Source of the DNA: Candidatus Zhuqueibacterota bacterium
Lineage (GTDB): Bacteria; BS750m-G25
Assembly (NCBI GenBank): GCA_016783505.1
Contig: JADHWK010000016.1
Span: 1 to 45,564, forward strand
DNA length: 45,564 nt
Direction of reading: 5' to 3'
The position numbers were made by a program, and so were the translations under genes. The notes beneath the pieces are model-generated. The model worked only from the letters and a program-made list of their open reading frames with translations, was not told the DNA's origin and did no database searches. The first letter of the stretch is position 1; every line of letters begins with the position of its first letter. Positions 13,627 to 32,926 of this stretch are shown here, in pieces.

Positions 13627-13649
13627 ATGACCAAAATAGATGTCTTCGT

Positions 13650-14525: not shown

Positions 14526-15848
14526 ATGGCCAGAAGAACTTTTAAAGGGGGGGTGCATCCCCCTACCCATAAAGAGCTTACTGAAGAAAAACCGATTGAA
14601 TCTTTGCCCATGCCCGAGCGGGTAATTGTGCCCTTAAAACAGCACCTGGGTGCCCCGGCTGAGCCCATCGTAGAGCGGGGGGCAAAGGTTAATGAAGGGG
14701 ATAAGATCGCCGAGGCCAAGGGATTCGTTTCCGTTCCCGCCCACTCCCCTATTTCGGGAAAGGTCGTCTCCGTAGAGCCTGTGCCCCATCCCTTCGGGGG
14801 GGAGGAGTTGGCGGTGATCATCCAGGCGGATGGGGAAGGTGCCCTAAATGAAGAAATCCAGTTTGACGATGATTATTTAGATCTTAGCCCTGATGAGATG
14901 AAGGATCGGGTGCGGGAGGCCGGATTGGCGGGAATGGGGGGAGCGGCCTTTCCCACCCACGTGAAGCTCTCCCCACCCGAGGATAAGCCCATTGACACCC
15001 TGATCATCAACGGGGCCGAGTGCGAGCCCTATCTTACCGCCGATCACCGTTTGATGGTGGAACAAGGTGAGGACATTATAAAGGGGTTGCGGATTTTCCA
15101 GAAGATCTTGGGTGGCCCCAGGGCGATAGTGGCCATCGAGGGGAACAAGCCGGATGCCATAGAGGCTATGAAAGGGTGGGTTCTTGAAGATGGGGACATT
15201 GCTGTAGTTTCCTTGAAGGTCAAATATCCCCAGGGGTCGGAGAAGCAGTTGATCAAGGCGCTGACCGGCCGCGAGGTGCCCAGCGGGGGACTGCCCATGG
15301 ATGTGGGGTGTCTGGTGCAGAATGTGGGCACTGCCAAGGCGGTGTACGATGCCGTCGCCTTCCGCAAGCCCCTCACCGAAAGGGTGGTGACGGTAACCGG
15401 CCGCGGGGTGGCCGAGTCCAAGAATGTGCGGGCTAAAATTGGGACCCCCTTTAAGGAGCTCATTGACTATTGTGGGGGCTATCGGGAAAACGGCCCCCTG
15501 AAGGTGATTATGGGGGGCCCCCTTATGGGGCTGGCCCAGGCCGACGACGGGGTTCCAGTGATCAAGGGTACTTCGGGCATCCTGGTGCTCCCGGAAAAGG
15601 ACTCCAGGCTGGGAACACCCAGGCCCTGCATCTCCTGCTCCCGGTGTGTGGATGTGTGCCCTGCGGGCTTGGTCCCCAGTTTCCTGGGTTCCTACGTTGA
15701 ATACGAGCAATGGGAAACGGCGGAGGGGATCGGGATAATGGACTGCATCGAATGCGGGTGCTGCACCTACGTCTGTCCCACCAAAAGAAATCTGGTTCAC
15801 CTCATAAAGTATGGGAAACAGATTGTCTTATCAAGTAGGGCCAATTAA
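14526..15848 (+). CDS. rnfC: RNF complex subunit C (NADH/FMN-binding, 4Fe-4S)
   Basis: Peripheral subunit of the ferredoxin:NAD+ oxidoreductase; in known RNF complexes it binds NADH and FMN and passes electrons through two [4Fe-4S] clusters. The 440-residue protein shows TFKGGVHPP at the start, a biotinyl-lipoyl-like segment (VSVPAHSPISGKV), the nucleotide loop GLAGMGGAAFPTHVK, NGAECEPYLT, and two cluster motifs: CISCSRCVDVCP (~367) and CIECGCCTYVCP (~406). First gene of a complete C-D-G-E-A-B set, the order known from clostridia and Thermotoga. A repeat-filled gap of 327 bases separates it from rnfD, which is unusual for this operon. Confidence 0.95.
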   Translation: MARRTFKGGVHPPTHKELTEEKPIESLPMPERVIVPLKQHLGAPAEPIVERGAKVNEGDKIAEAKGFVSVPAHSPISGKVVSVEPVPHPFGGEELAVIIQADGEGALNEEIQFDDDYLDLSPDEMKDRVREAGLAGMGGAAFPTHVKLSPPEDKPIDTLIINGAECEPYLTADHRLMVEQGEDIIKGLRIFQKILGGPRAIVAIEGNKPDAIEAMKGWVLEDGDIAVVSLKVKYPQGSEKQLIKALTGREVPSGGLPMDVGCLVQNVGTAKAVYDAVAFRKPLTERVVTVTGRGVAESKNVRAKIGTPFKELIDYCGGYRENGPLKVIMGGPLMGLAQADDGVPVIKGTSGILVLPEKDSRLGTPRPCISCSRCVDVCPAGLVPSFLGSYVEYEQWETAEGIGIMDCIECGCCTYVCPTKRNLVHLIKYGKQIVLSSRAN

Positions 15849-16175
15849 AGAACTTAGCCCCTTCGGGGCAACCGAAATAATGGAATGATGGAATTATGGG
15901 GAAATAAATATATCAGGTAATCAGGATACCAGTGGGAAGGAAATCAGTAGATCAGAACATTCGGAACGATCTTGGGACAGGATAAAACCTGATATTCTGA
16001 TTTACTTTAACTTAGACCTTTCTTAGAAATTCCGATACTTTTAATTAGTGGCTTTGATAAACCCGCTTCTATGGTTTCATCTGGAAAAATGGCCTGCAAA
16101 AGGGGGGGAATCTTCTTTTTAGAAATATTCTTTCCACCGATTTTTTTTACTTAGTAACGGTATTAGAGTCTGGTG
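15849..16175. other. rnfC-rnfD spacer with repeat and gene fragment
   Basis: Contains a copy of repeat family B (15909-16010). On the minus strand from about 16130 to 16007 a coding-like stretch reads AIFPDETIEAGLSKPLIKS and ends at a TAA, with a frame break near the G7 tract at about 16098; this could be a remnant of a small gene I cannot name. A GCCCC-TT-CGGGGC mini-hairpin lies just after rnfC. Confidence 0.4.
15909..16010. repeat. Dispersed repeat family B, copy 1
   Basis: Opens ATATCAGGTAATCAGGATAC-CAGTGGGAAG and closes GATAAAACCTGATATTCTGATTTACTTTAA. The left AATCAGGATACCAG and the complement of CTGATATTCTGATT are inverted. Copies 2 and 3 lie at 18245-18384 and 30131-30268, both also inside rnf/nqr gene gaps. 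Confidence 0.75.
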
Positions 16176-17210
16176 ATGGAAAAAACGGGATTTCTGTCTG
16201 TTTCTCCCCACATTCGGGATGATGTATCAATCCCGAAGATCATGTATTCGGTGGTACTGTCCCTGCTGCCCGCCCTGGCAGGGGCGGTCTATTTTTTCGG
16301 CTTGCGCTCTTTATGGTTGACGCTGGTCAGTGTGGCGACAGCAGTGGTGGTAGAAACCCTGCTCCAGAAATTGATGGGGCGGGAGATCACCGCCCTGGAC
16401 GGCAGTGCCATCGTCACCGGAATTCTGTTGGCTTTTAACCTTCCCCCCGGGGTGCCCTTCTGGATGCCTGCCGTGGGGTCCTTTTTCGCCATCGCCATTG
16501 CCAAAATTCCTTTCGGGGGATTGGGGTATAATCCTTTAAATCCGGCTCTGGCGGGCCGGGCCTTTTTATTGGCATCTTGGCCGGTGGAGATGACCACCCG
16601 ATGGATCGCTCCAAGGGGTGGCATAACCGCCGTCACCGGCATTGACGCCTTCACCGGAGCCACCCCCCTGGGCGTTCTTAAAGAATCCCATAAAATCCTG
16701 GCCGACCAGGCGGCCTATTCCATCGAAAAGGTGATTCAGGCCCGGGATGCGTTGGATCAACTCTCTTTTTCCTATGGGGACCTGTTCTGGGGTCGGGTGG
16801 GGGGATGTCTGGGGGAGACCTCCGTCCTCCTGCTTTTGATTGGGGCGGTTTTTCTGATGTATAAACGGTATGTCGGCTGGAAGATCCCGTTCAGCTTTCT
16901 GGGGATGGTGATGGTTCTCTCCTGGATATTTGGGGGGGACAAGGGGGGGTTCAGCGGCGATCCCATCTTTCATCTTCTTTCCGGCGGGTTGATCTTAGGG
17001 GCGTTCTTCATGGCTACTGATATGGTGACCACGCCGGTGACCTTTAAAGGTCGGCTGATCTTCGGCACCGGCTGCGGGGTGCTGACGGTGGCCATTCGTC
17101 TCTTAGGGGGTTACCCCGAAGGGGTCTCCTACTCAATTTTGTTGATGAACTTGACAACACCCCTGATTGACCGCTATACGATGCCGAGAATATTTGGGAC
17201 TAAAAAATAA
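16176..17210 (+). CDS. rnfD: RNF complex subunit D (flavinylated membrane subunit)
   Basis: Integral membrane subunit carrying covalent FMN and part of the ion path. ATG 16176 is preferred; GTG 16173 would add one residue. About 10 hydrophobic segments can be seen. The ApbE flavinylation motif D-A-F-T-G-A-T (fits Dxx[ST]GAT) is near residue 160, and the conserved FGGLGYNPLNPALAGR and FFMATDMVTTPVT segments are present. At ~345 residues it has the short RNF-type N-terminus, in contrast to the longer NqrB-like paralogue at 28990. No ApbE gene is in the window. Confidence 0.95.
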   Translation: MEKTGFLSVSPHIRDDVSIPKIMYSVVLSLLPALAGAVYFFGLRSLWLTLVSVATAVVVETLLQKLMGREITALDGSAIVTGILLAFNLPPGVPFWMPAVGSFFAIAIAKIPFGGLGYNPLNPALAGRAFLLASWPVEMTTRWIAPRGGITAVTGIDAFTGATPLGVLKESHKILADQAAYSIEKVIQARDALDQLSFSYGDLFWGRVGGCLGETSVLLLLIGAVFLMYKRYVGWKIPFSFLGMVMVLSWIFGGDKGGFSGDPIFHLLSGGLILGAFFMATDMVTTPVTFKGRLIFGTGCGVLTVAIRLLGGYPEGVSYSILLMNLTTPLIDRYTMPRIFGTKK

Positions 17211-17335
17211 CCTAACATTTCAGCCACGAAGGCACCAAGACACAGGGGTAAATAAGAGACTTGAATAAGGTTGAACACTAAAAGGTTGTGGCTGATCGCT
17301 GATAGCTGAACGCTTCTTCCCAATGAGGAGGGAAT

Positions 17336-17497
17336 ATGAAGGTTACAATCGAAATCCGGGATGATCTATACAGGAAGTTAAAAACAATTACAGAGATGGA
17401 TGATTGCTCAATTGACGAAGAAATTGAGATGGCAGTGCTGGTTATGGCTAAGAAGCGCACCTTGATCCAACGACTGATGGAGGAGACAGGGGGCTGA
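17336..17497 (+). CDS. Small ribbon-helix-helix-like protein, possible antitoxin
   Basis: A 53-residue ORF: MKVTIEIRDDLYRKLKTI, then EEIEMAVLVMAKKRTLIQRLMEETGG. An excellent GAGGAGGG ribosome site lies five bases upstream. A short beta-like basic/hydrophobic start followed by two helices is how many CopG/RHH antitoxins look. The next 70 bases contain broken coding-like phrases (EFDEAMQRLAD-stop, MKEILFLDVD-stop) that might be the residue of a longer antitoxin tail and a partner toxin start. It sits between rnfD and rnfG, so it is an intruder in the RNF operon. Confidence 0.5.
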   Translation: MKVTIEIRDDLYRKLKTITEMDDCSIDEEIEMAVLVMAKKRTLIQRLMEETGG

Positions 17498-17578
17498 ATT
17501 TGACGAGGCGATGCAAAGGTTAGCTGATTAGGTCCCGATGAAGGAAATTCTGTTTTTAGATGTTGATTAGGCTAAAGA

Positions 17579-18151
17579 ATGAAAAATATTTTAAAACTTG
17601 CCCTTATCCTGATGTTCATCGCCCTCATCGCCGCTGTGGGGTTGGCCCTGGTGAACTTGAAGACGAAACCGATCATCGAAGCCTATAAACGGTGGCAGCA
17701 GGAACAGGCCCGCAGGGAGGTCATACCGGTCGCTGAAGAGGGTGTATTTATATTAAAGGATAACGAGACGGAGTTTCCCTATTATATCGCCTATGTTGAC
17801 CCCGATACCACCAGGCTGGTGGGTTATACCTTTCTGGCTAAAGGAAAGGGCTACAGCAGCACCATTGAGACGGTGGTGGGGGTGGATACCGCTGGGATGG
17901 TGACCGGAATTAAGATCACCTTTCAGCAGGAGACTCCGGGGCTGGGGGCCAGGGCTACCGAGGTCAAATACGGTGATGAAAAACCCTGGTTTCCCCTCCA
18001 GTTCGCCGGGAAGTTGGCCCGCAACTTGGCCGTGGATAAGGACGGGGGCGAAATCCAGTCCATAACCGGAGCTACCATTACCTCCCGGGTAGTCACCAAC
18101 TCCATTAACGAGGGGATGAAGAAGCTTCAAGAAAAACTGAGCTTTAGGTAA
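17579..18151 (+). CDS. rnfG: RNF complex subunit G (covalent-FMN periplasmic subunit)
   Basis: 190 residues: a single N-terminal membrane span (LKLALILMFIALIAAVGLALV), then a soluble FMN-binding domain outside the membrane. The ETPGLGARATEVKY segment and the flavinylation site S-I-T-G-A-T-I-T-S near residue 165 are clear. The usual Asp three residues before the T/S-GAT motif is Gln here, as also in the NqrC-like paralogue at 30592. The stop is followed by a repeat-rich gap before rnfE. Confidence 0.94.
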   Translation: MKNILKLALILMFIALIAAVGLALVNLKTKPIIEAYKRWQQEQARREVIPVAEEGVFILKDNETEFPYYIAYVDPDTTRLVGYTFLAKGKGYSSTIETVVGVDTAGMVTGIKITFQQETPGLGARATEVKYGDEKPWFPLQFAGKLARNLAVDKDGGEIQSITGATITSRVVTNSINEGMKKLQEKLSFR

Positions 18152-18486
18152 TAGTTCACCACGGATAACCACAGAATAACACAGAAAAAGATGAGAAATG
18201 GGCAAATGAAGAACTAGCGAAGTAAATTTCCAAATGGGAATAAGAATATCAGATGATCAGGATACATGCCCGTCCCGAAGGTTCGGGACAGGCGGGTCAG
18301 CGGGAAGAATATCAGTCGTAGACCCGTTTCACCAGGGTGGATCAGAACATCAGGATAAAATCTGATATTCTGATATACCTTTAATTTTGGCTCCGTAAAA
18401 TTTGAGATGTTACCACTAAATTTCAGGGTTGATATCCCGAAACTTCGGGACCGTGGTGAACTGTTACAACTTTAGAAATAGGGATT
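18152..18486. other. rnfG-rnfE spacer made of repeats
   Basis: No gene. It holds CACCACGGATAACCACAGAATA-type low-complexity sequence (18157-18190; a similar phrase, CCACGAAGGCACCAAGACAC, follows rnfD), family B copy 2, and two TCCCGAA palindromes (18273 and 18435). Confidence 0.7.
18245..18384. repeat. Dispersed repeat family B, copy 2, with nested insertions
   Basis: Compared with copy 1, this copy has an extra block of about 30 bases carrying a TCCCGAAGG-TTCGGGA palindrome between GATAC and CAGCGGGAAG, and a second extra block (CGTAGACCCG..CCAGGGTGG) between CAGT and GATCAGAACAT. The rest aligns, ending CTGATATTCTGAT. This shows that the palindrome-bearing block behaves as an insertion unit. 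Confidence 0.75.
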
Positions 18487-19116
18487 ATGGAACTGAGCAA
18501 GGAATTTTTTAAAGGGCTGTATAAGGAAAACCCCGTCTTTCGATTAGCCCTGGGCCTGTGTCCGGCGTTGGCAGTGTCTAACTCGGTGGAGAATGGGATT
18601 GGTATGGGGGTTGCCGTTACCTTTGTGCTTGTCTGTTCAAATTTTCTTATTTCGTTGATCCGGAAAGGGGTACCCCCCAAGATCCGGATTCCCGTCTTTA
18701 TCGTCATCATCGCCACCTTTGTCACCATCGCTGATCTGGTGATGAACGCCTACCGGCCTGAGCTTCACAAAAATTTGGGCATTTTCGTTCCCCTGATCGT
18801 GGTAAACTGCATCATCCTGGGCCGGGCCGAGGCCTTTGCCTCCAAGCAGGGGGTGGCGGCCTCTTTCGTGGACGGGCTGGGGATGGGTATAGGGTTTACG
18901 CTGGCGCTGGTATTGATCGCCACCGTGCGGGAGATCCTGGGTGCGGGGACTTTTTTAGGCTATCCCCTGCTGGGCCCCGGGTATAAACCGGTGCTGTTGC
19001 TGGTCCTGGCCCCGGGGGCCTTCATCACCATGGGGCTTTTTATGGGGCTGTTCGCCTGGCTGGATCGCCGCCGTAAATTCCGTTATCTTGAGATAGAGAG
19101 GGCCAAATATAAATAA
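18487..19116 (+). CDS. rnfE: RNF complex subunit E
   Basis: Six-span membrane subunit, 209 residues. With RnfA it forms the intramembrane iron-sulfur site: the cysteines in LGLCPALAVSN and VVNCIILGRAEAFAS are in place. A basic loop RKGVPPKIRIP and the C-terminal APGAFITMGLFMG are family features. Preceded by a repeat-filled spacer; the start ATG 18487 follows AATAGGG. Confidence 0.95.
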   Translation: MELSKEFFKGLYKENPVFRLALGLCPALAVSNSVENGIGMGVAVTFVLVCSNFLISLIRKGVPPKIRIPVFIVIIATFVTIADLVMNAYRPELHKNLGIFVPLIVVNCIILGRAEAFASKQGVAASFVDGLGMGIGFTLALVLIATVREILGAGTFLGYPLLGPGYKPVLLLVLAPGAFITMGLFMGLFAWLDRRRKFRYLEIERAKYK

Positions 19117-19280
19117 TTAAACTTTGGCAAATTTAAAATGCTGATTTCTAATCCCGAACCTTCGGGATGGGATTTGGAGCTTGTGATTTATAAAAATTGA
19201 TCATTGCGCTTAGTAAATAATAAAAGGCAGAAAATGATAAAGATGTTGGGCCAGCAGAAGCATAAGAGAAAGAAGGGATT

Positions 19281-19910
19281 ATGGACTTCGGCTACCTGCT
19301 GACGATTGCCATAGGGACGATTTTCATCAATAACTTTGTTCTGGCTCGGTTCTTAGGGCTCTGTCCCTATCTTGGGGTGTCCAGGAAGATGGATTCGGCC
19401 GTCGGGATGGGCCTGGCCGTCATCTTTGTGATGACTATGGCCTCGACGTTTACCTGGCTGGTCTATACCTATCTTCTGTCTCCTGTGACCAACATCTGGG
19501 GAATAGATCTGATCTTCCTGCGCACCATCGCCTTTATTTTGGTCATCGCTTCACTGGTGCAGTTCTGCGAGATCGTCATCCAGAAGGTAAGCCCGCACCT
19601 GTATAAGGCCCTGGGCATCTATCTACCCCTGATTACCACCAACTGCGCTATTTTGGGGGTGGCAGTGCTGAATATTGACGAGTTTTTCCAAAACGGGGGA
19701 CCTATTACGGGAAGTTTCATCTATGCGGTCGTCCAGGGGTTTACGGCCGGGTTGGGGTTTACCTTAGCCCTGGTGCTGATGGCGGGTTTGAGGGAAAAGC
19801 TGGAGATGGCCGGGGTCCCCGAATCCCTGAAAGGGCAGCCTATTGCCTTCATCATGGCCGGGCTGATGGCTATCGCTTTCCTGGGATTTTCCGGGTTCTC
19901 AGTAGGGTAG
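19281..19910 (+). CDS. rnfA: RNF complex subunit A
   Basis: Six-span membrane subunit of 209 residues, partner of RnfE around the intramembrane cluster. Cysteines in LGLCPYLGVSRK and TTNCAILGVAV are conserved, as is NNFVLARFLG at the N-terminus. AAGAAGGG lies before ATG 19281. Separated from rnfB by 293 bases with an inverted repeat. Confidence 0.95.
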   Translation: MDFGYLLTIAIGTIFINNFVLARFLGLCPYLGVSRKMDSAVGMGLAVIFVMTMASTFTWLVYTYLLSPVTNIWGIDLIFLRTIAFILVIASLVQFCEIVIQKVSPHLYKALGIYLPLITTNCAILGVAVLNIDEFFQNGGPITGSFIYAVVQGFTAGLGFTLALVLMAGLREKLEMAGVPESLKGQPIAFIMAGLMAIAFLGFSGFSVG

Positions 19911-20067
19911 GTGGGGACAATGGAAAATTGGATGGATAAATGGAATATTAAAATATGGGTCAGGCTTTGGTGAAATCAACTTCTATTCGGGGGGATATTC
20001 AGGCGTGAAAAAATGCGCTGTTTTGAAATAGTATCATTTGGTTCTATGAAAATTTTTGAGTGTGTCA

Positions 20068-20131
20068 ACCCCGTTAGATAATCATTTTGCAAGGTTAGGT
20101 ATGTTAGACAGTTGTCAGTATCTAACGGGGT
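20068..20131. repeat. 13-bp inverted repeat between rnfA and rnfB
   Basis: ACCCCGTTAGATA at 20068-20080 and its exact complement TATCTAACGGGGT at 20119-20131, with 38 bases between. No T-tract follows. It could be a small non-autonomous element or an RNA structure ahead of rnfB. Confidence 0.6.
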
Positions 20132-20203
20132 CAACCGTGTTGATACATAAAGCGAGATGGTCGCTTTACTCCAAATTATTCCCAAAAGTTTTTATTGACC
20201 GTT

Positions 20204-21232
20204 ATGGATCCATCAATCTATGCCGCATTGATCAGCGTCGGCGTGCTGGGGTTTATCTTCGGCGGCGGGCTGGCCTATGCATCCAAAAAATTTCATGTGG
20301 AGATTGACCCCCGAGCTGAAAGGGTGCTGGATGCCCTTCCCGGCATTAACTGCGGGGCCTGCGGCTACCCGGGGTGTAGCGCCTTCGCTGAAGGGGTGGT
20401 AAACGGGGAGGCGGAACCATCGGGGTGCACCCCCGGTGGAGAGGGGGTTTCCGAGATAGTCTCGGCGATCATGGGGGTGGAGGTGGTGACCGCCACCGCC
20501 CCAGTGGCCGTTGTTCAATGTAAGGGGGGGCGAGGGGAGGCCAAGCAGCATTTCCAATATTACGGTGTGCCGGATTGTAACGCCGCCGATCTGGTAGCCG
20601 GGGGGCATATGGCCTGCCGCTACGGCTGTCTGGGACTGGGGTCCTGCGTTCGGGCCTGTCCCTTCGACGCCATGGAGATGAACGATAACGACCTGCCGGT
20701 AGTTTACGATGACCTGTGCACGGGATGCGGGTTATGCGTGGCCGCCTGTCCACGCAATATCATCGCCCTTATCCCCCGGGAGGCTAAAGTTTACTTAGGA
20801 TGCGTCTCCCGGGATCGGGGTAAGAAGGTCAAGGACGTCTGCTCGGTAGGCTGCACCGGCTGCACCCTGTGTGCCAACCCCAAGGTAACCCCCTCGGGGG
20901 CCATTCAAATGGACGGTTATCTGCCGGTAATTGATTTTAATGTTGAGGATAACCTTCTGGTGGCCGCCTATAAGTGTCCCACCAATTCCTTCGTGGATAA
21001 GCTCAAACATCGGCCCAAATTTACCATCACCAATGACTGTACGGGAACGGGTGAGTGCGTTTCTGCGTGTCCGGTCAAGGACTGCATTACCGGAGTGAAA
21101 GGGGAGAAGTTCGAGATTAACCCCGAGCTCTGTATCAGTTGCGGGCGGTGTCAGCCCGTATGTCCCGAAAAGGCCATTACCGTTATCGGGGCGCTGGCCT
21201 ATCAAGAGCAGTCGTTGGAAGGGGTAGGATAA
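20204..21232 (+). CDS. rnfB: RNF complex subunit B (multi-cluster ferredoxin subunit)
   Basis: Entry point for electrons from reduced ferredoxin. ATG 20204 (MDPSIYAALISVG) is preferred over TTG 20195; there is no clear Shine-Dalgarno. One membrane anchor, then the special cluster domain NCGACGYPGC..SGC (~50-75). After that come several ferredoxin-type motifs: CRYGCLGLGSCVRACP, CTGCGLCVAACP, CSVGCTGCTLC, CTGTGECVSACP and CISCGRCQPVCP. At 342 residues it is much longer than E. coli RsxB, matching the long cluster-rich RnfB of anaerobes. It closes the RNF set; nuoJ begins 53 bases on. Confidence 0.94.
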   Translation: MDPSIYAALISVGVLGFIFGGGLAYASKKFHVEIDPRAERVLDALPGINCGACGYPGCSAFAEGVVNGEAEPSGCTPGGEGVSEIVSAIMGVEVVTATAPVAVVQCKGGRGEAKQHFQYYGVPDCNAADLVAGGHMACRYGCLGLGSCVRACPFDAMEMNDNDLPVVYDDLCTGCGLCVAACPRNIIALIPREAKVYLGCVSRDRGKKVKDVCSVGCTGCTLCANPKVTPSGAIQMDGYLPVIDFNVEDNLLVAAYKCPTNSFVDKLKHRPKFTITNDCTGTGECVSACPVKDCITGVKGEKFEINPELCISCGRCQPVCPEKAITVIGALAYQEQSLEGVG

Positions 21233-21285: not shown

Positions 21286-21777
21286 ATGGCATTATTGTTC
21301 TATTTATTCGCTCTGGTGGTCGCCTTTTCAGCGGTGATGGTGATTATCCGGAGGAATCCGGTCTCCAGCATCCTTTACCTGATGCTGGTCATGTTTTCCC
21401 TGGCTGGGCTTTATGTTCTGCTGGGAGCCCGCTTTATCGCCGCCCTGCAGGTGACGGTCTACGCCGGGGCCATCATGGTGCTCTTTTTGTTCGTGGTGAT
21501 GCTGCTGAACCTGGATAAGCCGGATGGTGTTGAGAGAAAACGGGCCGTAACCCGACTGATTGGGTTTTTAGTGGCCGGGCTGTTGTTGTTTTTGAGCGCT
21601 TTGTTGGTCAGGTCCAATTCCATTCAAAGCTCGGGAATGGACTTTAGACCGATGGGAACGGCCCAGGCGGTGGGGAAGACCCTGTTTACGGATTATTTAC
21701 TGCCCTTGGGAATAGTTCCCGTTTTGCTGCTTGCGGCTGTGCTGGGGGCGGTAGTACTGACGAATAAGAAATTATGA
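21286..21777 (+). CDS. nuoJ: NADH-quinone oxidoreductase subunit J
   Basis: Membrane subunit of respiratory complex I, 163 residues with five spans. The conserved third helix with its pi-bulge region reads QVTVYAGAIMVLFLFVVML, intact. N-terminal RRNPVSSILYLMLVMFSLAGLY is typical. First of a J-K-L-(M)-N block that follows rnfB. The rest of complex I (A-D, E-G, H, I) is not in the window. No ribosome site is visible before ATG 21286. Confidence 0.92.
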   Translation: MALLFYLFALVVAFSAVMVIIRRNPVSSILYLMLVMFSLAGLYVLLGARFIAALQVTVYAGAIMVLFLFVVMLLNLDKPDGVERKRAVTRLIGFLVAGLLLFLSALLVRSNSIQSSGMDFRPMGTAQAVGKTLFTDYLLPLGIVPVLLLAAVLGAVVLTNKKL

Positions 21778-21862
21778 GAATTATGAACCTTATTTCTAAA
21801 GCTGGGTTGTCGGATAGTAACGAATTTTCGGGATGCATCCGACCTACAGCAGAATTTGGGAA

Positions 21863-22168
21863 ATGCAGATTACGTTAGAACATTATCTGTTCTTGTCCGC
21901 TTTTCTTTTTGCCGTCGGGGTAGCCGGGGTGCTCACCCGGCGGAACGCCCTGATAATCTTTATGTCCATTGTGCTTATGCTGAATGGGGTGAATCTGACC
22001 TTCATCGCCCTGGCTCATTATCTTTCCGATATGGTCGGCCGGGTGTTCGTGGGCTTGGGGGTAACGGTGGCCGCCGCTGAGGTAGCGGTGGGGCTGGCTG
22101 TTGTGATCGCCATCTTCCGGAATAAGGGGACGGTTCATATTGATGTATTGAGCCTGACGAAATGGTAG
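21863..22168 (+). CDS. nuoK: NADH-quinone oxidoreductase subunit K with altered Glu36
   Basis: Start [16 protein letters not shown] at ATG 21863 matches NuoK; the upstream ATG 21833 adds ten spacer-derived residues. 101 residues, three spans. The second essential glutamate (E. coli Glu72) is present in [12 protein letters not shown] (residue 73). The first, Glu36 of E. coli, normally in MSIELMLN, is Val37 here (MSIVLMLN, codon GTG instead of GAG/GAA). Its stop overlaps the nuoL start by seven bases, so coupling is retained. Either proton transfer through NuoK is lost or the subunit works differently. Confidence 0.93.
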
Positions 22169-24000
22169 ACTATATTTGCTTAATCCTCCTCTTCCCCCTG
22201 ATCGGGGCCGGGGTTAACGGGCTTTTCGGGCATAAGCTTTCGGAAAAGACGGTGGGGATCATCGGTTGTTCGGCCATCGGGCTCTCCTTTCTGGTGGCTG
22301 GGGGAGTAATGATCCAGTTGGTGGGTCTGCCTCTAGCTGAGCGAAGGGCCGAAGTTACCCTATTCACCTGGCTTTTGGCCGGTGATTTTCGCATTCCGTT
22401 GGCTCTGTTGGTGGATCAGCTCTCCGGGGTGATGATCCTGGTGATAAGCGGGGTGGGTTTTCTGATCCATATCTATTCGCTGGGCTACATGCACGGGGAT
22501 CGGGGTTTTTCCCGCTACTTTGCCTGGATGAACCTGTCTGTCTTCTTCATGTTGCTGTTGGTGCTGGGAAATTCCTTTCCCATTTCGTTGGTGGGCTGGG
22601 AGGGGGTTGGTCTCTGCTCTTATCTTCTGATCGGCCTCTGGTATGAGGACCCGGCGAAGGCGGCGGCCGGGAAGAAGGCCTTCATCGTAGGCCGGATCGG
22701 TGACTGCGGGTTAATTATCGGTGTGCTGTTGATCTTCGCCACCTTCAAAACCCTGAATTATGTCGCGGTTTTTGAACTGGCAGGGTCATATCCAGGCAAC
22801 AGTGGGGTTATGATTGCCATTGCCTTGCTACTCTTCGTTGGGGCGGTTGGCAAATCGGCCCAGCTTCCCCTATACGTATGGCTGCCCGACGCCACTGCCG
22901 GCCCCCCACCGGTATTAGCCCTACTTACCACCACCACCATGGTCCCCGCTGGGGTATACATGGTGGCCCGGACCCATCCCCTTTATGAACTGGCCCCAGT
23001 TTCATTGACAGTCCTCTTGGTGGTAGGGGGCCTCACAGCAATTTATGCCGCCTCCATCGCCCTGGTCCAGAACGACATCAGGCGGGTGCTGGCCTATGCT
23101 ACCATCAGTCAACTGGGGTATATGTTTATGGCCTGCGGTGCCGGGGCCTATGCCGCCGGCATTTTCCATCTGACAACCTATGCTTTCTTCAATGCACTGC
23201 TATTTTTAGGGGTCGGGAGCATCATCCACGCCCTGGGAGGGGATGGGGACATCCGCCAGATGGGGGAGCTCAAGAAACATCTTCCTATTACCTTTTGGAC
23301 GTTTCTAGTAGCTGCGCTGGCCATCTCGGGTATCCCTGGGTTTTCGGGCTTCTTCAGCAAAGTTGAAATTCTATGGAAGTCCTTGAGCGGGGGCCATCCC
23401 TATGGCTGGGCGGTGGGGACAGTAGTTGCCGGCATGACCTCATTCTACATGTTCCGATTGCTCTATTTGACATTCTATGGCGATTTTCGGGGGAAAAAGA
23501 AAGCCCCAGAGCACATCCAAGAATCACCCCCCTCCATGGGAGTTCCCCTCATCCTATTGGGTGTCCTGTCCCTCTTCGGGGGATTGGGGGGGCTGCGCAA
23601 GCTGTTGGGCGGTGGGGATTGGTTGGGCCGTTTTTTAGCCCCGGTTTTCGAAAGCCCCGGGGTTCGTCACCGGGTCTATCATACCAGCGGCTTTGAATTC
23701 CTGATCATGGGGATTTTCGTGTTCGTAGTGCTGGTGGGTATTGCTCTGGCCTATTTGATGTATCGTAAAGCCCCCGAACTTCCCCAAAAGGCGGCCTCGA
23801 AATTCAGATTGGCCTATCATATTCTGTACAATAAATATTTTGTGGACGAAATCTACAATGTTGTCGTCGCTCAACCGGTGGTAAAGGGCTCCAATTGGCT
23901 ATTGCGCTGGGTTGACGATGGGGCCATTAACAAATCGGTAATGCTCATGGCCTCGGGGGTCGTCTTGATCCTCGGCTATTTTATTTTGCAAGTTCTTTAG
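22162..24000 (+). CDS. nuoL: NADH-quinone oxidoreductase subunit L with altered channel residues
   Basis: Antiporter-like membrane subunit of complex I, 612 residues, with the long C-terminal lateral helix. Conserved: E147 in [15 protein letters not shown]231 in [10 protein letters not shown]336 in FHLTTY, K400 in [11 protein letters not shown]. Changed relative to E. coli NuoL: His254 is Thr256 ([11 protein letters not shown] instead of LIHAATMVTAG), His338 is Tyr340 and the central Lys342 is Asn344 ([11 protein letters not shown] instead of THAFFKALLF). These belong to the central proton pathway. The frame is intact, so the gene is expressed-looking but probably not a canonical pump. Overlaps nuoK; nuoM after it is a remnant. 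Confidence 0.95.
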
Positions 24001-24009: not shown

Positions 24010-24173
24010 GTGAACCTCACTATTCTCTCCTTTATCACCTTTTCATTGGGATAGTCCTCTGGATCGGGGTCTATCCGAAGCCCTTCTTAAGCCGGATGGA
24101 GGCCTCAGTGGGCTATCTGATCCAGCGGGTGGAGTTGGCTAGGGATGGGACACCTAATTCAGACAACCTGTGA
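24010..24173 (+). pseudogene. nuoM: nuoM remnant: N- and C-terminal stubs joined
   Basis: Where nuoM is expected there are only ~160 bases. GTG 24010 reads V-NLTILSFITFSLG and stops at TAG 24052, resembling a NuoM start. In another frame from 24051 the sequence reads IVLWIGVYPKPFLSRMEAS and VGYLIQRVELA to a TGA at 24171, which is the NuoM C-terminus (the 'WIGxYPxPFLxRMExSV' tail). About 460 codons between these are missing. This looks like a large internal deletion. Confidence 0.7.
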
Positions 24174-24615: not shown

Positions 24616-24852
24616 ATGATTCGAGAATTGGACTCTGTTGCTTTGGCCTGTGACATTGCAGAGCATGGCCTGAAACAGGGCGATATAGGAGCAGTGGTTC
24701 ACTGCTACGGTGATGGATTGGCTTTTGAAGTTGAATTTGTGACCGCAGCGGGCAAGACAATTACTGTATTGACACTTAGCAGGGATGAAATCCGCCCTTT
24801 GGGGGGGAGAGAAATTCTTCATGCTCGGGAACTGGAACAGACTTTGGCATAA
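24616..24852 (+). CDS. DUF4926-like protein
   Basis: 78 residues: IRELDSVALACDIAEHGLKQGDIGAVVHCYGDGLAFEVEF in part, that is HGLKQGDIGAVVH then AFEVEFV and VLTLSRDEIRPL. This is the small beta-barrel DUF4926 family, with the GD-x-GxVV turn and VEF strand intact. A GGGAGGAG ribosome site precedes ATG 24616. It pairs with the DUF6883 gene. Confidence 0.82.
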   Translation: MIRELDSVALACDIAEHGLKQGDIGAVVHCYGDGLAFEVEFVTAAGKTITVLTLSRDEIRPLGGREILHARELEQTLA

Positions 24853-24929: not shown

Positions 24930-25059
24930 AGTGAACATCTAGATCAGTGTCTAGCCGAAGCCCTTCTTAAGCCGAATGGAGGTTTCTGTGGACCACATGA
25001 TCAAGAGGCTGGAATTGGCCAGGGATGAGGGATTAAATTTCTGTATCGGAAATTGCTGA
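24930..25059 (+). pseudogene. nuoM: Second nuoM C-terminal remnant
   Basis: Reads SV-stop-PKPFLSRMEVSV then DHMIKRLELARDE to a TGA at 25057-25059. It is clearly homologous to the C-terminal part of the remnant at 24051-24173 (the stretch CCGAAGCCCTTCTTAAGCCG is identical), but with many differences further on, including TAT to TAG in the 'GVYPKP' motif. It therefore comes from a diverged second nuoM copy, or an old duplication, rather than a recent target-site duplication. Confidence 0.7.
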
Positions 25060-25104
25060 TTATTGTTAGAAGGGCGCAAAACAAAAATCTTCCAAAGGGA
25101 ATCC

Positions 25105-26550
25105 TTGATATCCAGTCCTGAAATAAATATAAGTTCCATCGGGCCGGAGCTGACTGTTTTGCTGACGGCCATCGTCATCCTGGTGGTTGATCGGTGGGTG
25201 GCGAAAAGGAAACCATGGTTGCCATTGGGGCTGGGACTGGCCGGGTTGGCCCTGGCCCTGGGGGTCACGTTGTCGTTATGGAATCAATCCCGGGCTGGGT
25301 TCGGGGGGCTGATCGCCGCCGATAACTATGCTCTGTTTTTTAACCTTATTTTTCTCATTGCTGCCGCCATGACCTTTCTGGTCTCAAGATTTTATCTGGA
25401 CCAGAACGGGATGCAGCGGGGTAAATATTATGTTTTGTTGCTCTTTGCCCTGCTGGGGATGATGGTAACAGCGTCAGGCACGGACCTGTTGACCATTTTC
25501 CTGGGCCTGGAAACCTCGGCCGTTTCCCTCTATGCCCTGGCTGGCTTTCTGCGGGGACGGGTAAAATCCAATGAATCGGCCCTGAAATATATTCTGCTGG
25601 GGGCCTTTTCTACCGGATTTTTTCTGTATGGGGTGGCGCTGGTTTACGGGGGCACGGGGACTACCAATCTGGGGAGAATTGCTGACCACTTAGCCAAGAC
25701 CGACCTTTTATCATCCTCAATAATGCTGGCGGGGATGGGGCTGTTGATAGTGGGGTTCGGCTTTAAGGTGGCGGCGGTGCCCTTTCATTTCTGGGCCCCC
25801 GATGTCTACGAAGGGGCCCCAACCCCGATAGCCGCCTTCATCTCGGTGGGTCCAAAGGCAGCGGCTTTCGCCGCATTCCTGCGGGTATTCAGCACGGCTC
25901 TGCCGGCCCTGAAGCCCCAATGGACCCCGGTGCTCTACGTATTAGCCATCCTGACTATGACCCTGGGGAACCTGGCGGCCCTATCCCAGTGGAACATCAA
26001 ACGGATGCTGGCCTATTCCTGTATCGCCCATGCAGGGTATGTGCTGGTGGCGTTGGTGGCCGGTGAGGAGTTAGGAAATGCCAGTGTCCTCTTCTATCTG
26101 TTCGTCTACAGCCTGATGAACCTGGGGGTCTTCACCATCGCCATCTTGATCAATCGAAGGGGGAAAGGGAATTACCATCTGAACGACTACGCCGGGCTGG
26201 GCACCAGCCATCCCCTCCTGGGGGCGGTCATGGCGCTGTTTATGCTATCGTTAGCGGGAATTCCCCCCACGGCCGGGTTCTTCGGTAAATTCTATATCTT
26301 CGCTGCCGCGGTTAAATCGGACTATATCTGGTTGGCGGCGATCGGAATTCTGAACTGGTTGGTTTCCGTCTATTATTATCTGCGAATCGTCGTCACTATG
26401 TATATGATAAAGCCGGAGATCGCCTTGAAAAGGGTCAGGGTAGTACCGGAATTTGTGGTGGTCCTTCTGGTTTCGGCCCTGGGGATCCTGGGGCTGGGCC
26501 TCTTTCCGTCCGGACTGATGTTCTTGGTGAAAAGCGCGGTGATTTTTTGA
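25105..26550 (+). CDS. nuoN: NADH-quinone oxidoreductase subunit N
   Basis: Antiporter-like complex I subunit, ~481 residues, 14 spans. TTG 25105 is preferred because AAAGGGA lies just upstream; TTG 25063 is also in frame. Key residues are retained: Glu in GLETSAVSLYAL, Lys in GFKVAAVPFHFW, the PDVYEGAPTPIAAF loop, Lys in VGPKAAAFAAF and Lys in TAGFFGKFYIF. NIKRMLAYSCIAHAGY is standard. NuoN thus looks fully functional, in contrast to NuoK and NuoL upstream. Confidence 0.94.
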   Translation: MISSPEINISSIGPELTVLLTAIVILVVDRWVAKRKPWLPLGLGLAGLALALGVTLSLWNQSRAGFGGLIAADNYALFFNLIFLIAAAMTFLVSRFYLDQNGMQRGKYYVLLLFALLGMMVTASGTDLLTIFLGLETSAVSLYALAGFLRGRVKSNESALKYILLGAFSTGFFLYGVALVYGGTGTTNLGRIADHLAKTDLLSSSIMLAGMGLLIVGFGFKVAAVPFHFWAPDVYEGAPTPIAAFISVGPKAAAFAAFLRVFSTALPALKPQWTPVLYVLAILTMTLGNLAALSQWNIKRMLAYSCIAHAGYVLVALVAGEELGNASVLFYLFVYSLMNLGVFTIAILINRRGKGNYHLNDYAGLGTSHPLLGAVMALFMLSLAGIPPTAGFFGKFYIFAAAVKSDYIWLAAIGILNWLVSVYYYLRIVVTMYMIKPEIALKRVRVVPEFVVVLLVSALGILGLGLFPSGLMFLVKSAVIF

Positions 26551-26621: not shown

Positions 26622-27785
26622 ATGCTTCTTTTGCATTTAGCCCTTATCGTCATTCTGAGCAAACTGGTCTCGGCCCTGGCGGCAAAATATAAGCAGCCCC
26701 CTGTTCTGGGGATGCTGTTGCTGGGGCTATTGCTGGGGCCCTCGGGATTTCACTTTATTGACTCGGAGATTGTATTAAAAAGCCTCGCCAAACTCGGAGT
26801 CCTGATCCTCATCTTCATGGTGGGTCTGGAGACAGATTTTGGGGGGATGAGGAGGCAGGGAAGGGCCTCCTTTTTGGCCGCCTTGGGGGGCGTTATCTTC
26901 CCCTTTGGGCTGGGAATTGGAACTGCTTTGTTCTTCAACTATGGATTGCTCGAGGGTTTCGTCATCGGAACTATCCTGACGGCAACCAGCGTGAGCGTCA
27001 CCGCTATGACCCTTATAGATTTGGGAAAGCTCAAGACGGCGGAGGGAACCACAATCCTCGGGGCGGCGATTCTCGATGATATCTTTGGGATCTTATTAAT
27101 TTCCATTATACTTTCCCTTGGGGGCGGTCAGACGAACATATGGGCCGTATTGGGGAAAATCATTCTGTTCTTTTTCATCACTACGGGGATCGGGATTTTT
27201 GCTTTTCCAAAATTGATGCGCTTCTCAGAGAGGCTCCATGTGCCCCACGGGGCGGTCGCCATTGCCCTGGGTCTGGCTTTCTTATATGCCTGGATCGCAG
27301 AACTCGGGAGGATTGCCTATATCACCGGGGCCTATCTTGCCGGGCTCTTTTTGGGAAGAACCACTACCCAGCGTCGTATTATCGCCGGGATGGAAACCCT
27401 GGGACAATCCCTTTTCACAGCTATCTTCTTTGTAAATATCGGGCTGGAAACCGAGCTAAAGGGCTTGAGTGAAAGCTATCTTTTTGTCCTTATCTTTGTC
27501 TTAGCCGCCATATTGGGGAAGGTGATCGGAAGCGGAATCGGAAGCTGGACCTCCGGGTTCAACCGGGCCCAATCCCTCCGGGTGGGCATCGGGATGATGC
27601 CCAGGGGCGAGGTGGCCCTGGTGGTTGCCTCCGTCGGTCTGTCAAATCAACTGATCGGACAGGTCGAGTATTCCGGAACCGTGGTGATGGCCATCCTGAC
27701 GGCTCTGCTGACCCCATTCCTCCTGAAGCTGGCTTTTGGTAAAAAGGAAATTCAGGATAATCCACCGGGGGAACTGCACGCCTAA
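26622..27785 (+). CDS. CPA2-family Na+/H+ antiporter
   Basis: 387 residues with 12-13 membrane segments. It starts KLVSALAAKYKQPPVLGMLL with GLLLGPSG, the cation:proton antiporter 2 N-terminus. The ion-binding pair is D152-D153 in AAILDDIFGI, the double-Asp motif of electrogenic NapA-like exchangers; KefB/C-type K+ channels have Gln-Asp. The unwound helices TATSVSVTAMTL and MMPRGEVALVVAS are conserved. The regulatory RCK/TrkA-N tail is absent. It precedes EIIA and PII-like genes. Likely exchanges Na+ for H+, linking the sodium and proton gradients. Confidence 0.85.
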   Translation: MLLLHLALIVILSKLVSALAAKYKQPPVLGMLLLGLLLGPSGFHFIDSEIVLKSLAKLGVLILIFMVGLETDFGGMRRQGRASFLAALGGVIFPFGLGIGTALFFNYGLLEGFVIGTILTATSVSVTAMTLIDLGKLKTAEGTTILGAAILDDIFGILLISIILSLGGGQTNIWAVLGKIILFFFITTGIGIFAFPKLMRFSERLHVPHGAVAIALGLAFLYAWIAELGRIAYITGAYLAGLFLGRTTTQRRIIAGMETLGQSLFTAIFFVNIGLETELKGLSESYLFVLIFVLAAILGKVIGSGIGSWTSGFNRAQSLRVGIGMMPRGEVALVVASVGLSNQLIGQVEYSGTVVMAILTALLTPFLLKLAFGKKEIQDNPPGELHA

Positions 27786-28989: not shown

Positions 28990-30117
28990 ATGAAAAGACT
29001 ACGCACCTTTTTTAATGGAATTTATAAGCAGGCCAAAGAGAAGCCGGTCCTGCGTACCCTGATGCCCCTGATCCGGATGATGGACAACTTCATCTTCGAG
29101 TCCGGGGGGGTGGTGACTGATGCTCCCCTGATCCGTGATGGGATCGGCACGCAGCGGTTTATGTCCATGGTGATTGTGGCGATTGCCCCGGCCACCATCG
29201 CTTCGGTCTATTTCTTCGGCTGGCGTTCGCTGTCCGTGATTGCGGTCTCCTATATTTTTGGCGGGATAACCGAGATTATCTTCGCCATCGTCAGAAAGGA
29301 ATCTATCAACGAGGGGCTGCTGGTAACCGGGATACTCTTTCCCTTAACCCTGCCCCCAACTATCCCCCTTTGGATGGTGGCCGTGGGGGTTGTGGTTGGT
29401 GTGGCCCTGGGGAAGGAGGTGTTCGGGGGCACTGGGAAGAATATCTTCAACCCGGCGCTGGTGGGGAGGGTTTTCCTGGCCATCGCCTTTCCGGTGGAGA
29501 TGACTACCAAATGGACAGCACCTGTGGGCGGTTTCTGGGGTGGTTTTACAACTTATCTTCCCGATGCGGTCACCTCAGCTACACCCCTGACCATTTTCAA
29601 ATCAACCGGCCAGCTCACCACCAATCTGGATTTGCTGTGGGGCAATGTGGCCGGGAGCCTGGGGGAAACCTCCGCCCTCCTGCTCATATTGGGGGGCCTG
29701 TTCCTGATGCTGACTAAGGTGAGCAACTGGCGCATACCGGTGGGCTATCTGGGCTCGGCCTTTGCCTTCGGATGGGTTATGTGGCTGCTGGTTCCCCAAA
29801 AGTTTGCCCCCCCAGTATTTCAACTGCTATCCGGAGGGCTGCTTTTCGGAACCTTCTTCATGGCCACCGACCCGGTCTCGGCCCCCATAACGAACCTGGG
29901 AAGGTGGATATATGCCCTTTTGCTCGGTATCATTACCATCATTATTCGGGGGTTGAGCGGATATGTGGAGGGGGTGATGTTTGCCATTTTATTCATGAAC
30001 ATCTTTTCATCCTTAATCAATGACATGACCGTTCCCCTCATTGCCAGGCGCAGGGAGCGGAGGGTTAAAGCCTCACTGAGTGCACGTCTTGGGAGTCCCA
30101 AAAATCTAACGAAATAA
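28990..30117 (+). CDS. nqrB: NQR-type subunit B (flavinylated membrane subunit)
   Basis: 375 residues, a paralogue of the RnfD at 16176. It is longer at the N-terminus: ~50 residues including KPVLRTLMPLIRMMDNFIFES and RDGIGTQRFMSMV, which corresponds to the NqrB extension ahead of 'RDxxDxKRxM'. The ApbE-type site is D-A-V-T-S-A-T (fits Dxx[ST][SG]AT) near residue 197. FGGTGKNIFNPALVGR and FFMATDPVSAPITN are conserved. First gene of an NQR-like set B-C-D-E-A-F. The basic C-terminal tail (RRRERRVK) is cytoplasmic. Confidence 0.88.
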   Translation: MKRLRTFFNGIYKQAKEKPVLRTLMPLIRMMDNFIFESGGVVTDAPLIRDGIGTQRFMSMVIVAIAPATIASVYFFGWRSLSVIAVSYIFGGITEIIFAIVRKESINEGLLVTGILFPLTLPPTIPLWMVAVGVVVGVALGKEVFGGTGKNIFNPALVGRVFLAIAFPVEMTTKWTAPVGGFWGGFTTYLPDAVTSATPLTIFKSTGQLTTNLDLLWGNVAGSLGETSALLLILGGLFLMLTKVSNWRIPVGYLGSAFAFGWVMWLLVPQKFAPPVFQLLSGGLLFGTFFMATDPVSAPITNLGRWIYALLLGIITIIIRGLSGYVEGVMFAILFMNIFSSLINDMTVPLIARRRERRVKASLSARLGSPKNLTK

Positions 30118-30130
30118 TGTTCTAAACAAG

Positions 30131-30268
30131 TATATCAGGTGATCAGGACATCAGTGGGAAGAATATTAGAAAATCAGGAGAACAGTATAGGATAGATGAG
30201 TTAAATGTTGCACGGAGAAAATAATCTGGTGTTCTGGTAACCTAATCCTCTTCCAACTGATTTACTGA
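30131..30268. repeat. Dispersed repeat family B, copy 3
   Basis: TATATCAGGTGATCAGGACATCAGTGGGAAG at the start matches copies 1 and 2; the right part (AATCTGGTGTTCTGGTAACC) is more diverged. Confidence 0.6.
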
Positions 30269-30280
30269 TCAGTCCGGCGT

Positions 30281-30520
30281 CAGTCGGGCGGGCCTATTGC
30301 AGAACTACCGCATCGGTCAGGCGCCCGACTGATAGGAATAAATTCCTATGCTAATCCAAATAAAGTATGTTGAAACATACTGTAATCAGTCCCGAAGTTT
30401 CGGGGCTTTCTTTGAAATAGCGTGATAATTTATTATCACGCAAATAGGAAACCAGTCCCAAGATCTTTACGACGATTTCAGAGTTGTGCCACAGGCCCGG
30501 GCGCCTGACCGACCTGACGG
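30281..30520. repeat. MITE-like repeat with divergent interior (family A)
   Basis: The ends match the other copies: CAGTCGGGCGGGCCTATTGC on the left and GTTGTGCCACAGGCCCGGGC..CCTGACGG on the right. The inside is different and includes a second inverted terminus (CGCCCGACTG at 30322-30331, exact complement of CAGTCGGGCG), suggesting a nested or rearranged element. Confidence 0.65.
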
Positions 30521-30591
30521 ATATTCTTATTTACTTTAATATCAGTAAAGGCCTAATGAAGAAAATGCGGCACTAAGTTCAGGAGGAACCC

Positions 30592-31203
30592 ATGACCAAA
30601 AAACTTAAGCAGAGATTGTGGATGATCGGTCTAATGGCCATAATGGGTGTTATTTCAGCTTCGCTTTTAGCCAGCATCTACCAGTATGCTCAACCCATCG
30701 TGGAACGGAACCGAAGGATTAAGCTCTATTCGGCGGTGCTGACCGTGTTGAGGGTTGATTATTCAATGCCGGATATGGAAGTAGTTTTTCAGGATAGGAT
30801 AAAAATTATCGAACAGGAGGGGCTGACCCTTTATGAAGGATATTCTGATAAGGGACGACTTTTAGGCTATGCCCTGCCCCTCAAGGGTGGGGGGTTCTGG
30901 GGGCCCATTGCCACGGTCCTCGGCCTTGAGCCCGACTGGGAGACCCTCAAAGGGATCGAGATTATTGAAAATGTGGAGACGCCGGGACTGGGTGCCCGGA
31001 TCACCGAACCGGCTTTTAAAGCCTCTTTTAGGGGGCTGAAGGCCACCCCCAACATCACTTATGTGCTGCATAAGGAGCCGGAAAGACCCAATGAATTTCA
31101 GGCCATAACCGGGGCCACAGAGACAAGTAAATCTATTGCCAGGATCTTTAACAAGGGGATCAGACAATATCGTGGAGTTTTTGAAATATCCCTTGCGCAA
31201 TGA
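30592..31203 (+). CDS. nqrC: NQR-type subunit C (covalent-FMN subunit)
   Basis: 203 residues. One N-terminal span (MIGLMAIMGVISASLLASIY) and a soluble FMN-binding domain. NQR-type features: GGGFWGPIATVLGLEPD..TLKGIEIIE and VETPGLGARI; flavinylation site A-I-T-G-A-T-E-T-S near residue 178. The residue three before the motif is Gln rather than Asp. AGGAGG precedes ATG 30592. More like NqrC than the RnfG at 17579 because of the 'GxGFWGPI' segment. Confidence 0.88.
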   Translation: MTKKLKQRLWMIGLMAIMGVISASLLASIYQYAQPIVERNRRIKLYSAVLTVLRVDYSMPDMEVVFQDRIKIIEQEGLTLYEGYSDKGRLLGYALPLKGGGFWGPIATVLGLEPDWETLKGIEIIENVETPGLGARITEPAFKASFRGLKATPNITYVLHKEPERPNEFQAITGATETSKSIARIFNKGIRQYRGVFEISLAQ

Positions 31204-31334
31204 AAATTGAAAAGTGTCTCGAACATTCGGGGGAAAATGCAAAATAGTGAAGAACAAATAACTTTGCATTTTGATATTTTCATTTTTCAATCAAGCTTAT
31301 GCGTGCCGGTGCATATCATTTGGATAAAATAATT

Positions 31335-31504
31335 ATGGCAGAAAAATTAATCGTTGAAGGATTCAAACAATTTGGAGGAAAGCATTGCCAGACGACGTCA
31401 CTGAAGAATGTATCTCTTTACTAGACAATTTGAAACAGAAGATTATTGAATGTTATGAGATAGAAGAACGAGCATTTCAGATATTAAGTAATACTGTAAA
31501 ATGA
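31335..31504 (+). pseudogene. BtrH-like gene reduced to terminal stubs
   Basis: ATG 31335 reads MAEKLIVEGFKQFGGKHCQT then TSLKNVSLY and a TAG at 31422: the start of BtrH N-terminal-type proteins (VEGFxxFGGKHCxTxxLxN, with the catalytic-type Cys). Immediately after, in another frame, NLKQKIIECYEIEERAFQIL runs to a TGA at 31502, matching a family C-terminal helix. About 90% of the gene between them is gone. It lies in the nqrC-nqrD gap. Confidence 0.6.
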
Positions 31505-31608
31505 AGTGGCAAAACAAGCCCAATAACAGATCAACTACGCCATTCCGATTATTAAAAATCCAATAGGAAAATGTATTATTTGGGCAAGGTGAATAGAAAG
31601 GAGATGCT

Positions 31609-32280
31609 ATGGCTGAAACTGGTATCCAAGTTCAAGCAATACCGATGGTGAAGCCCGGGTTGTCGCTCTGGCATAAGGTCAAAAAGAGCCGAAGTTACAC
31701 CGACTTAGTCAGGGGGCTGTGGGCGGATAACCCCACCTACCGCATGGTGCTGGGCATGTGTCCCACCCTGGCGGTGACCAATACCGCGGTGAACAGCGTG
31801 GCCATGGGTCTGGCCACCATGTCGGTTACCATCTTTAGCTCGGTCGCCATATCCATCATTCGCCGCATCATTCCCCGGCGGGTGCGTTTGGCGGTCTTTA
31901 TGATCATTATCGCCACCCTGGTCACCTTCGTGGATCTGTTTTTCAAAGCCGTCCTGCCGGACATCAGCGAAGCCCTGGGTGCCTATGTGGGGCTGATTAT
32001 CACCAATTGCATCATTCTGGGGCGGGCTGAGGCCTTTGCCTCGATCAACAAACCCTGGTACTCTTTCTTAGACGCCCTGGGAGTGGGACTGGGATTCACC
32101 GCTTCGCTTACCATTCTGGGCATGGTGCGGGAATTCTTAGGATTTGGCACCATCTTCTACCAGGAGGTCGCTGGCGCCGGTTGGACCGATTGGGCGATTA
32201 TGATCATGCCCCCGGGCGCCTTCTTAACCCTTGGGGTATTATATGGAATATTTAACAGCATCTCAAAACCTAAAGAATAG
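31609..32280 (+). CDS. nqrD: NQR/RNF-type subunit D
   Basis: 223 residues, six spans, homologous to RnfE/NqrD. The intramembrane cluster cysteines are present in LGMCPTLAVTN and ITNCIILGRAEAFAS. A ~35-residue N-terminal extension (to SYTDLVRGLW) is longer than in the RnfE at 18487. GAAAGGAG precedes ATG 31609. Nine bases separate it from nqrE, the closest spacing among the membrane genes of both sets. Confidence 0.92.
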   Translation: MAETGIQVQAIPMVKPGLSLWHKVKKSRSYTDLVRGLWADNPTYRMVLGMCPTLAVTNTAVNSVAMGLATMSVTIFSSVAISIIRRIIPRRVRLAVFMIIIATLVTFVDLFFKAVLPDISEALGAYVGLIITNCIILGRAEAFASINKPWYSFLDALGVGLGFTASLTILGMVREFLGFGTIFYQEVAGAGWTDWAIMIMPPGAFLTLGVLYGIFNSISKPKE

Positions 32281-32289
32281 GAGTAGATA

Positions 32290-32871: not shown

Positions 32872-32905
32872 TTGCAGAGGAAACAGGGATGATTATAAAC
32901 AGTTG

Positions 32906-32926
32906 CTTCAAGGTTGCACCTTGAAG
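32906..32926. repeat. Palindrome left of the inserted HEPN-like gene
   Basis: CTTCAAGGT-TGC-ACCTTGAAG, nine-base perfect arms. A sister palindrome with the same core (TTCAAGGT/ACCTTGAA) lies on the other side of the gene at 33526-33548. Confidence 0.75.

Follow-up and report, generated by a model that had tools for sequence, protein, structure and literature searches.

A NuoJ-K-L-N gene block with a deleted nuoM and altered proton-pathway residues behind an RNF operon in a Candidatus Zhuqueibacterota genome

The systems closest to the locus described here are complex I (NDH-1), the Mrp (CPA3) antiporter and the laboratory-made Nqo12-deltaTH and Nqo13. In NuoL, His254 is strictly conserved and sits at the junction of the routes leading to Lys229, Lys305 and Lys342 (PMC13358369). 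In isolated Thermus Nqo12, the residues corresponding to Lys305, Lys342, Lys399 and Asp400 make up a proton wire, and K385I, at the counterpart of Lys399, blocks conduction (PMC11496545); the correspondence between Thermus Nqo12 and E. coli NuoL numbers comes from the alignment of the present analysis. Nqo12-deltaTH and Nqo13 represent antiporter-like subunits that conduct protons outside complex I, and they indicate that clamping a chosen pair would require the transverse helix to be re-engineered (PMC11496545). For NuoM/Nqo13, it was reported that water could replace lost His residues (PMC9802314). NuoL can substitute for MrpA in B. subtilis, and NuoL carrying H254A still supported growth of an mrpA strain (PMC4938563).

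The window, which is the whole stretch of DNA analysed here (45,564 nucleotides), corresponds to contig C66 of a single-source MAG, which has 2.5 Mb in 89 contigs and is 60% complete. In the genome collection used for comparison, this species stands alone for its order and phylum. The contig search of that collection, a sample that is broad rather than exhaustive, may omit very close relatives, and no relative was closer than about 56-58% identity. The main features are listed below.

14526 to 21232, plus strand: rnfC-rnfD-rnfG-rnfE-rnfA-rnfB, a complete RNF set directly 5' of nuoJ (Pfam/NCBIfam)
21286 to 21777, plus strand: nuoJ (PF00499, E=8.5e-40, 136 bits), with F141, E142 and S145 lost
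21833 to 22168, plus strand: nuoK (NF004320, 101 bits), likely family start at ATG 21863, with Glu36 changed to Val and Glu72 kept
22162 to 24000, plus strand: nuoL (TIGR01974, 642 bits, cut-off 407.5)
25063 to 26550, plus strand: nuoN (TIGR01770, 456 bits, cut-off 333)
26622 to 27785, plus strand: a CPA2 antiporter gene, followed by a PTS-EIIA gene
28990 to 36844, plus strand: an RNF/NQR-type cluster, 2.5 kb downstream of nuoN
beyond the RNF/NQR-type cluster, plus strand: V-type ATPase genes

All six RNF subunit genes (C, D, G, E, A and B) are present, RnfC, D, G and E being recognised by family models only. The nuo genes retain the order J-K-L-(M)-N of complex I, and the block adjoins rnfB in place of nuoI. 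GC3 is alike across the tested rnf, nuo and nqr genes (0.66-0.68), so the nuo block is not recently foreign. At the 29 other RnfB loci examined, neither nuoJ nor nuoK lies inside a distance of about 1.5 kb. A literature search for an RNF-NuoJKL cluster found nothing relevant; nuo appears once in an RNF/NQR review, as NuoF.

Several further observations concern the surroundings of the block. The spacers between the rnf genes at 15848-20195 measure about 165-370 bp and those of the NQR-like cluster reach about 475 bp, which is unusually loose for such operons. A repeat of about 118 nt is dispersed over three intergenic sites, 7001-7118, 13510-13627 and 35228-35345, at 64-90% identity; a further repeat adjoins it at 13383 and 35120. 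The cluster at 28990-36844 holds an RnfC-type protein (33632-35080; TIGR01945, 322 bits, above cut-off) and an NqrF-type protein (35762-36844; TIGR01941, 287 bits, just below the cut-off of 295), and NqrA models fall far under cut-off there. The cluster looks like the intermediate expected from the RNF to NQR model (PMC4014512). Between its nqrE/rnfA-like and rnfC-like genes, a 173-residue protein without a family match is encoded at 32973-33494. In the V-type ATPase c subunit (40250-40720), each double hairpin carries a single Glu, and the motif LPGTQ is present.

NuoJ, NuoK, NuoL and NuoN are clear members of complex I by sequence (Pfam, NCBIfam), and NuoL is so by predicted fold as well (AlphaFold; TM about 0.85 against complex I NuoL chains). 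The genome contigs were searched family by family for the remaining parts. Of the quinone/electron module, NuoB, NuoD (PF00346) and NuoH (PF00146) were all missing from the 60%-complete genome, in which absence is no proof. The sole PF01058 gene was considered as NuoB and rejected, as it lies in an operon for a group-3-type NiFe hydrogenase (L149; FAD/NAD, small and large subunits), of which it encodes the small subunit. That operon suggests anaerobic H2 metabolism. No second nuo operon or second NuoL was found in the 60%-complete genome, and only two PF00361 genes are present, so the third antiporter-like subunit, NuoM, is lacking. A blastx search of the spacers against ORFs of relatives recovered no remnants of nuoA-I.

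A preliminary description of this DNA had reported that key proton-pathway residues are lost from NuoK and NuoL in intact frames. This was re-examined by MAFFT alignment with 80 NuoL and 69 NuoK sequences, with registration fixed on solved-structure chains from E. coli, Thermus, Paracoccus and Mycobacterium; NuoJ was compared with 64 relatives. A column was called near-invariant when at least 95% conserved. The frames of nuoK and nuoL are open and overlap by 7 nt, as had been stated. All four reported substitutions were upheld: NuoK Glu36 is Val (window residue 47; Glu in 69/69), and NuoL H254, H338 and K342 are T256, Y340 and N344 (His, His and Lys, each in 80/80). The residues described as kept are indeed retained, namely NuoK Glu72 (E83) and NuoL E144 (E147), K229 (K231), H334 (H336) and K399 (K400). 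Misregistered sites were ruled out by the alignment with solved complex I structures and the 80 relatives.

The alignment also revealed more breaks than had been claimed. In NuoL, 22 of 157 near-invariant columns are broken (leave-one-out among the 80 relatives: maximum 8, median 1). These include the P-side Asp, D400 (V401; Asp in 80/80), and K305 (R307; Lys in 80/80), together with a cluster of substitutions, M245T, T249P, S252L, I255L, A257T, A258T and T262P. In NuoK, Glu36 is the only one of 20 conserved columns that is broken. In NuoJ, 3 of 12 are broken (F141, E142 and S145), and E142, numbered identically in E. coli, is Gly (Glu in 64/64). D400, K305, the 245-262 cluster and NuoJ E142 had been overlooked in the preliminary description, as had the helix deletion and the nuoM scar described below. 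Only one charged residue is gained in an otherwise uncharged NuoL column. The altered NuoL motif, written as the degenerate pattern T-[HY]-[AG]-F-F-N-A, turned up in no other NuoL among 386 genomes; the other NuoL proteins examined have the usual motif wherever the scan could read. Four further matches of the pattern all lie in unrelated frames and were discarded.

The losses strike one connected network; gone are the central Lys, the His switch, one further His and the exit Asp. Judged from these residues, the window NuoL is very probably unable to carry protons by the canonical route, with the reports on water in NuoM/Nqo13 and on H254A NuoL cited above as reservations. The breaks are also clustered: 13 of 47 conserved columns are affected at residues 241-330 and 9 of 110 elsewhere (Fisher P=0.002), with 0/15 in residues 1-120 and 1/26 past 411. 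Private residues are spread over the whole length of NuoL, which is the most divergent of 81 sequences (8.5% against a median of 1.1%).

NuoN, RnfA and RnfB served as controls. NuoN has 3 of 52 conserved columns broken and keeps all 11 conserved ionizable residues, RnfA has 0 of 61 broken and RnfB 1 of 41. Since these three proteins are normal, the NuoL losses do not reflect general drift of the genome, although the contrast between NuoL and NuoN is not significant by itself (P=0.14 for all columns and P=0.17 for ionizable residues). The same controls bear on whether the changes are an artefact of assembly or sequencing. A single-source MAG of 89 contigs and 60% completeness invites that concern, but the changes are many, scattered and all frame-preserving, GC3 does not differ from that of neighbouring genes and nothing is amiss in the controls. 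An artefact can therefore hardly be the explanation, and sequencing error behind the NuoL and NuoK changes is very unlikely.

The space between nuoL and nuoN holds the following features.

24010 to 24054, plus strand: 5' remnant of nuoM, 9 bp past the nuoL stop, assigned by position and comparison with NuoM N-termini
24045 to 24173, plus strand: 3' remnant of nuoM, IGIVLWIGVYPKPFLSRMEASVGYLIQRVELARDGTPNSDNL up to the stop, out of frame with the 5' piece and covering about the last 40 codons
24261 to 24593, plus strand: a DUF6883 gene (PF21814, E=3e-31), between the nuoM remnants
24616 to 24852, plus strand: a DUF4926 gene (PF16277, E=1.2e-21), adjoining the DUF6883 gene
24938 to 25027, plus strand: a second copy of the nuoM 3' remnant (repeat D6; blastx), sharing 81% identity with the first and interrupted by in-frame stops

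The loss of nuoM, to which the preliminary description had alluded, thus has a direct trace: the gene was removed by deletion, leaving a scar between nuoL and nuoN. The 5' remnant reads GTG AAC CTC ACT ATT CTC TCC TTT ATC ACC TTT (MNLTILSFITF) and resembles a NuoM start in both position and appearance. The 3' remnant matches NuoM C-termini (blastx best E=2e-7, 54% over 37 aa). Judged from the NuoM lengths of relatives, more than 1 kb of nuoM would have been deleted between the remnants. The two 3' copies differ at codon positions 1/2/3 in the ratio 6/3/8, so their divergence looks mostly neutral. Their distance of 0.22 substitutions per site is a soft clock only, as their divergence may predate the loss of nuoM. 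In the DUF6883/DUF4926 pair, GC3 is below that of the nuo genes (0.48 for the DUF6883 gene against 0.66-0.68).

The scar is fresh, with both ends still recognisable and a foreign-looking gene pair between the remnants, and fits a decay in progress. Under this explanation, complex I became dispensable when its role passed to NQR/RNF; nuoA-I have disappeared, nuoM has been deleted, and constraint is fading on J, K and L (then N), which have yet to gain a stop. The NQR-like cluster 2.5 kb past nuoN, the failure to find NuoB, NuoD and NuoH in the 60%-complete genome, the position of NuoL as the fastest-changing of 81 and the lost invariant residues of NuoJ and NuoK all agree with it. Against decay stand the normal NuoN, the clustering of the NuoL changes and the open frames. 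J, K and L run for about 886 codons without a stop or frameshift, although 14% of the constrained NuoL positions have changed. When neutral drift was simulated to 22 conserved-codon changes, 0.07 substitutions per site were reached with a mean of 3.5 stops in NuoL, and zero stops occurred in only 2-3% of runs (P 0.02-0.03; substitutions in NuoL alone, indels left aside). If the 0.22 substitutions per site between the nuoM copies postdate the loss of nuoM, fully neutral J, K and L together would hold about 7-8 stops. Pure neutral drift is therefore disfavoured, and weak selection is still compatible with these numbers. Decay in progress is a serious contender, if a doubtful one, and ranks only a little behind the reading preferred below.

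The lateral helix of NuoL carries a second structural change, which lies at the following position.

about 23904 to 23955, plus strand: site at which the proximal half of the NuoL lateral helix lacks about 24 residues in frame, flanked by a 13-residue stretch (sequence omitted here) on one side and by VMLMASGV of TM16 on the other

Counted from NKYFVDE as far as the stop, the NuoL tail measures 56 aa; in 107 relatives the median is 81, and nearly all have 74-86 or more. Twenty-four helical residues at 1.5 A each correspond to about 36 A. If the lateral helix spans three antiporter-like subunits, this length would be close to one of them. In E. coli NuoL, the residues past Pro564 lie closest to NuoM (PMC3274701), so the missing half of the helix runs on from the NuoM contact. 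AlphaFold confidence over the shortened helix is low (53-64), too low for its placement. Two other loci in the collection have altered lateral helices: in L056:8714-10648, NuoL has a 16-residue in-frame shortening with nuoM intact on the 3' side, and in L022:1061-2926, NuoL has a frameshift in the helix and is followed by nuoM. Shortened lateral helices are therefore rare but not unique. Nqo12-deltaTH and Nqo13 were made in the laboratory with the wire intact, whereas in the window NuoL the wire is broken and the helix was shortened in nature.

Our preferred reading, held at a little short of even confidence, is that the block is a relic of a complex I arm without NuoM, in which NuoL is proton-dead and its frame is maintained for a structural role, capping NuoN next to RNF. 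The block would be the distal membrane arm (NuoJ-K-L-N) of a former complex I, orphaned behind an intact RNF operon. The shortening by about 24 residues would let the last NuoL helix reach NuoN with one subunit missing. In the resulting compact J-K-N-L arm, NuoL may act as a structural cap or gate, the full ion-translocation set would be left in NuoN alone among the antiporter-like subunits, and selection would still hold the reading frames open. The specificity of the losses to NuoL relative to NuoN, RnfA and RnfB counts for retention, as do the open frames, the clustered changes within one network, the single gain of charge, the preserved NuoL fold and the in-frame helix deletion near the NuoM contact. 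The private residues along the whole of NuoL are also expected under relaxed selection and count against retention. The non-significant contrast between NuoL and NuoN, the short helix with an intact nuoM in L056, the low AlphaFold confidence for the helix and the fact that no driving partner of the arm was identified count against it as well. A stronger form, in which a working four-subunit J-K-N-L arm lost NuoM, had its helix cut by about one subunit and NuoL switched off, and now forms a hybrid ion pump with RNF, is unlikely.

The preliminary description had left open whether the block is at an early stage of decay or repurposed. The nuoM scar and the failure to find a second nuo operon in the 60%-complete genome partly bear out its proposal. 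A uniform decay of the block is not supported, as NuoN and the RNF proteins are normal and the NuoL changes clustered. Neutral drift alone would have been expected to leave stops. On the evidence of this one MAG, retention is only slightly more probable than decay.

The preliminary description had also named a sodium-linked module beside RNF, and the surroundings (RNF, NQR-like cluster, V-type ATPase) are compatible with this. A change of ion would mean that J-K-L-N functions like an Mrp antiporter next to RNF and the V-type ATPase, with Thr, Tyr and Asn of NuoL passing Na+ in place of the Lys/His wire. NuoL, NuoK and NuoN do correspond to the subunit types MrpA, MrpC and MrpD, the neighbours include a CPA2 antiporter, and the V-type ATPase c subunit reads LPGTQ...Q...E, which we take to be the Na+-binding pattern of E. 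hirae NtpK. The replacement of MrpA by NuoL in B. subtilis, even with H254A, also speaks for it. However, MrpA keeps the His254 equivalent (PMC4938563, PMC13358369), and the loss of this shared His takes the window NuoL away from Mrp too. NuoL scores 642 bits as NDH_I_L against at most 244 bits for subunit A models. The main ORFs of the window contain no MrpE, MrpF or MrpG, and the best matches of the block are Nuo models. A changed ion is thus distinctly improbable.

Compared with complex I, the block has lost NuoM and a stretch of the lateral helix, and its NuoL and NuoK have not kept the conserved proton-transfer residues. The cited papers describe two questions as difficult to address by point mutation: whether protons leave complex I through NuoL alone, and whether the arm can work after a subunit has been taken out. 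An arm that in nature lacks both NuoM and the His254-Lys342 network and has a short lateral helix would lend itself directly to such tests. If the block reflects decay only, it documents the sequence in which constraint fades from one part of complex I after another in the presence of NQR and RNF. The locus shows a complex I pump that is either dying or stripped down for another job.
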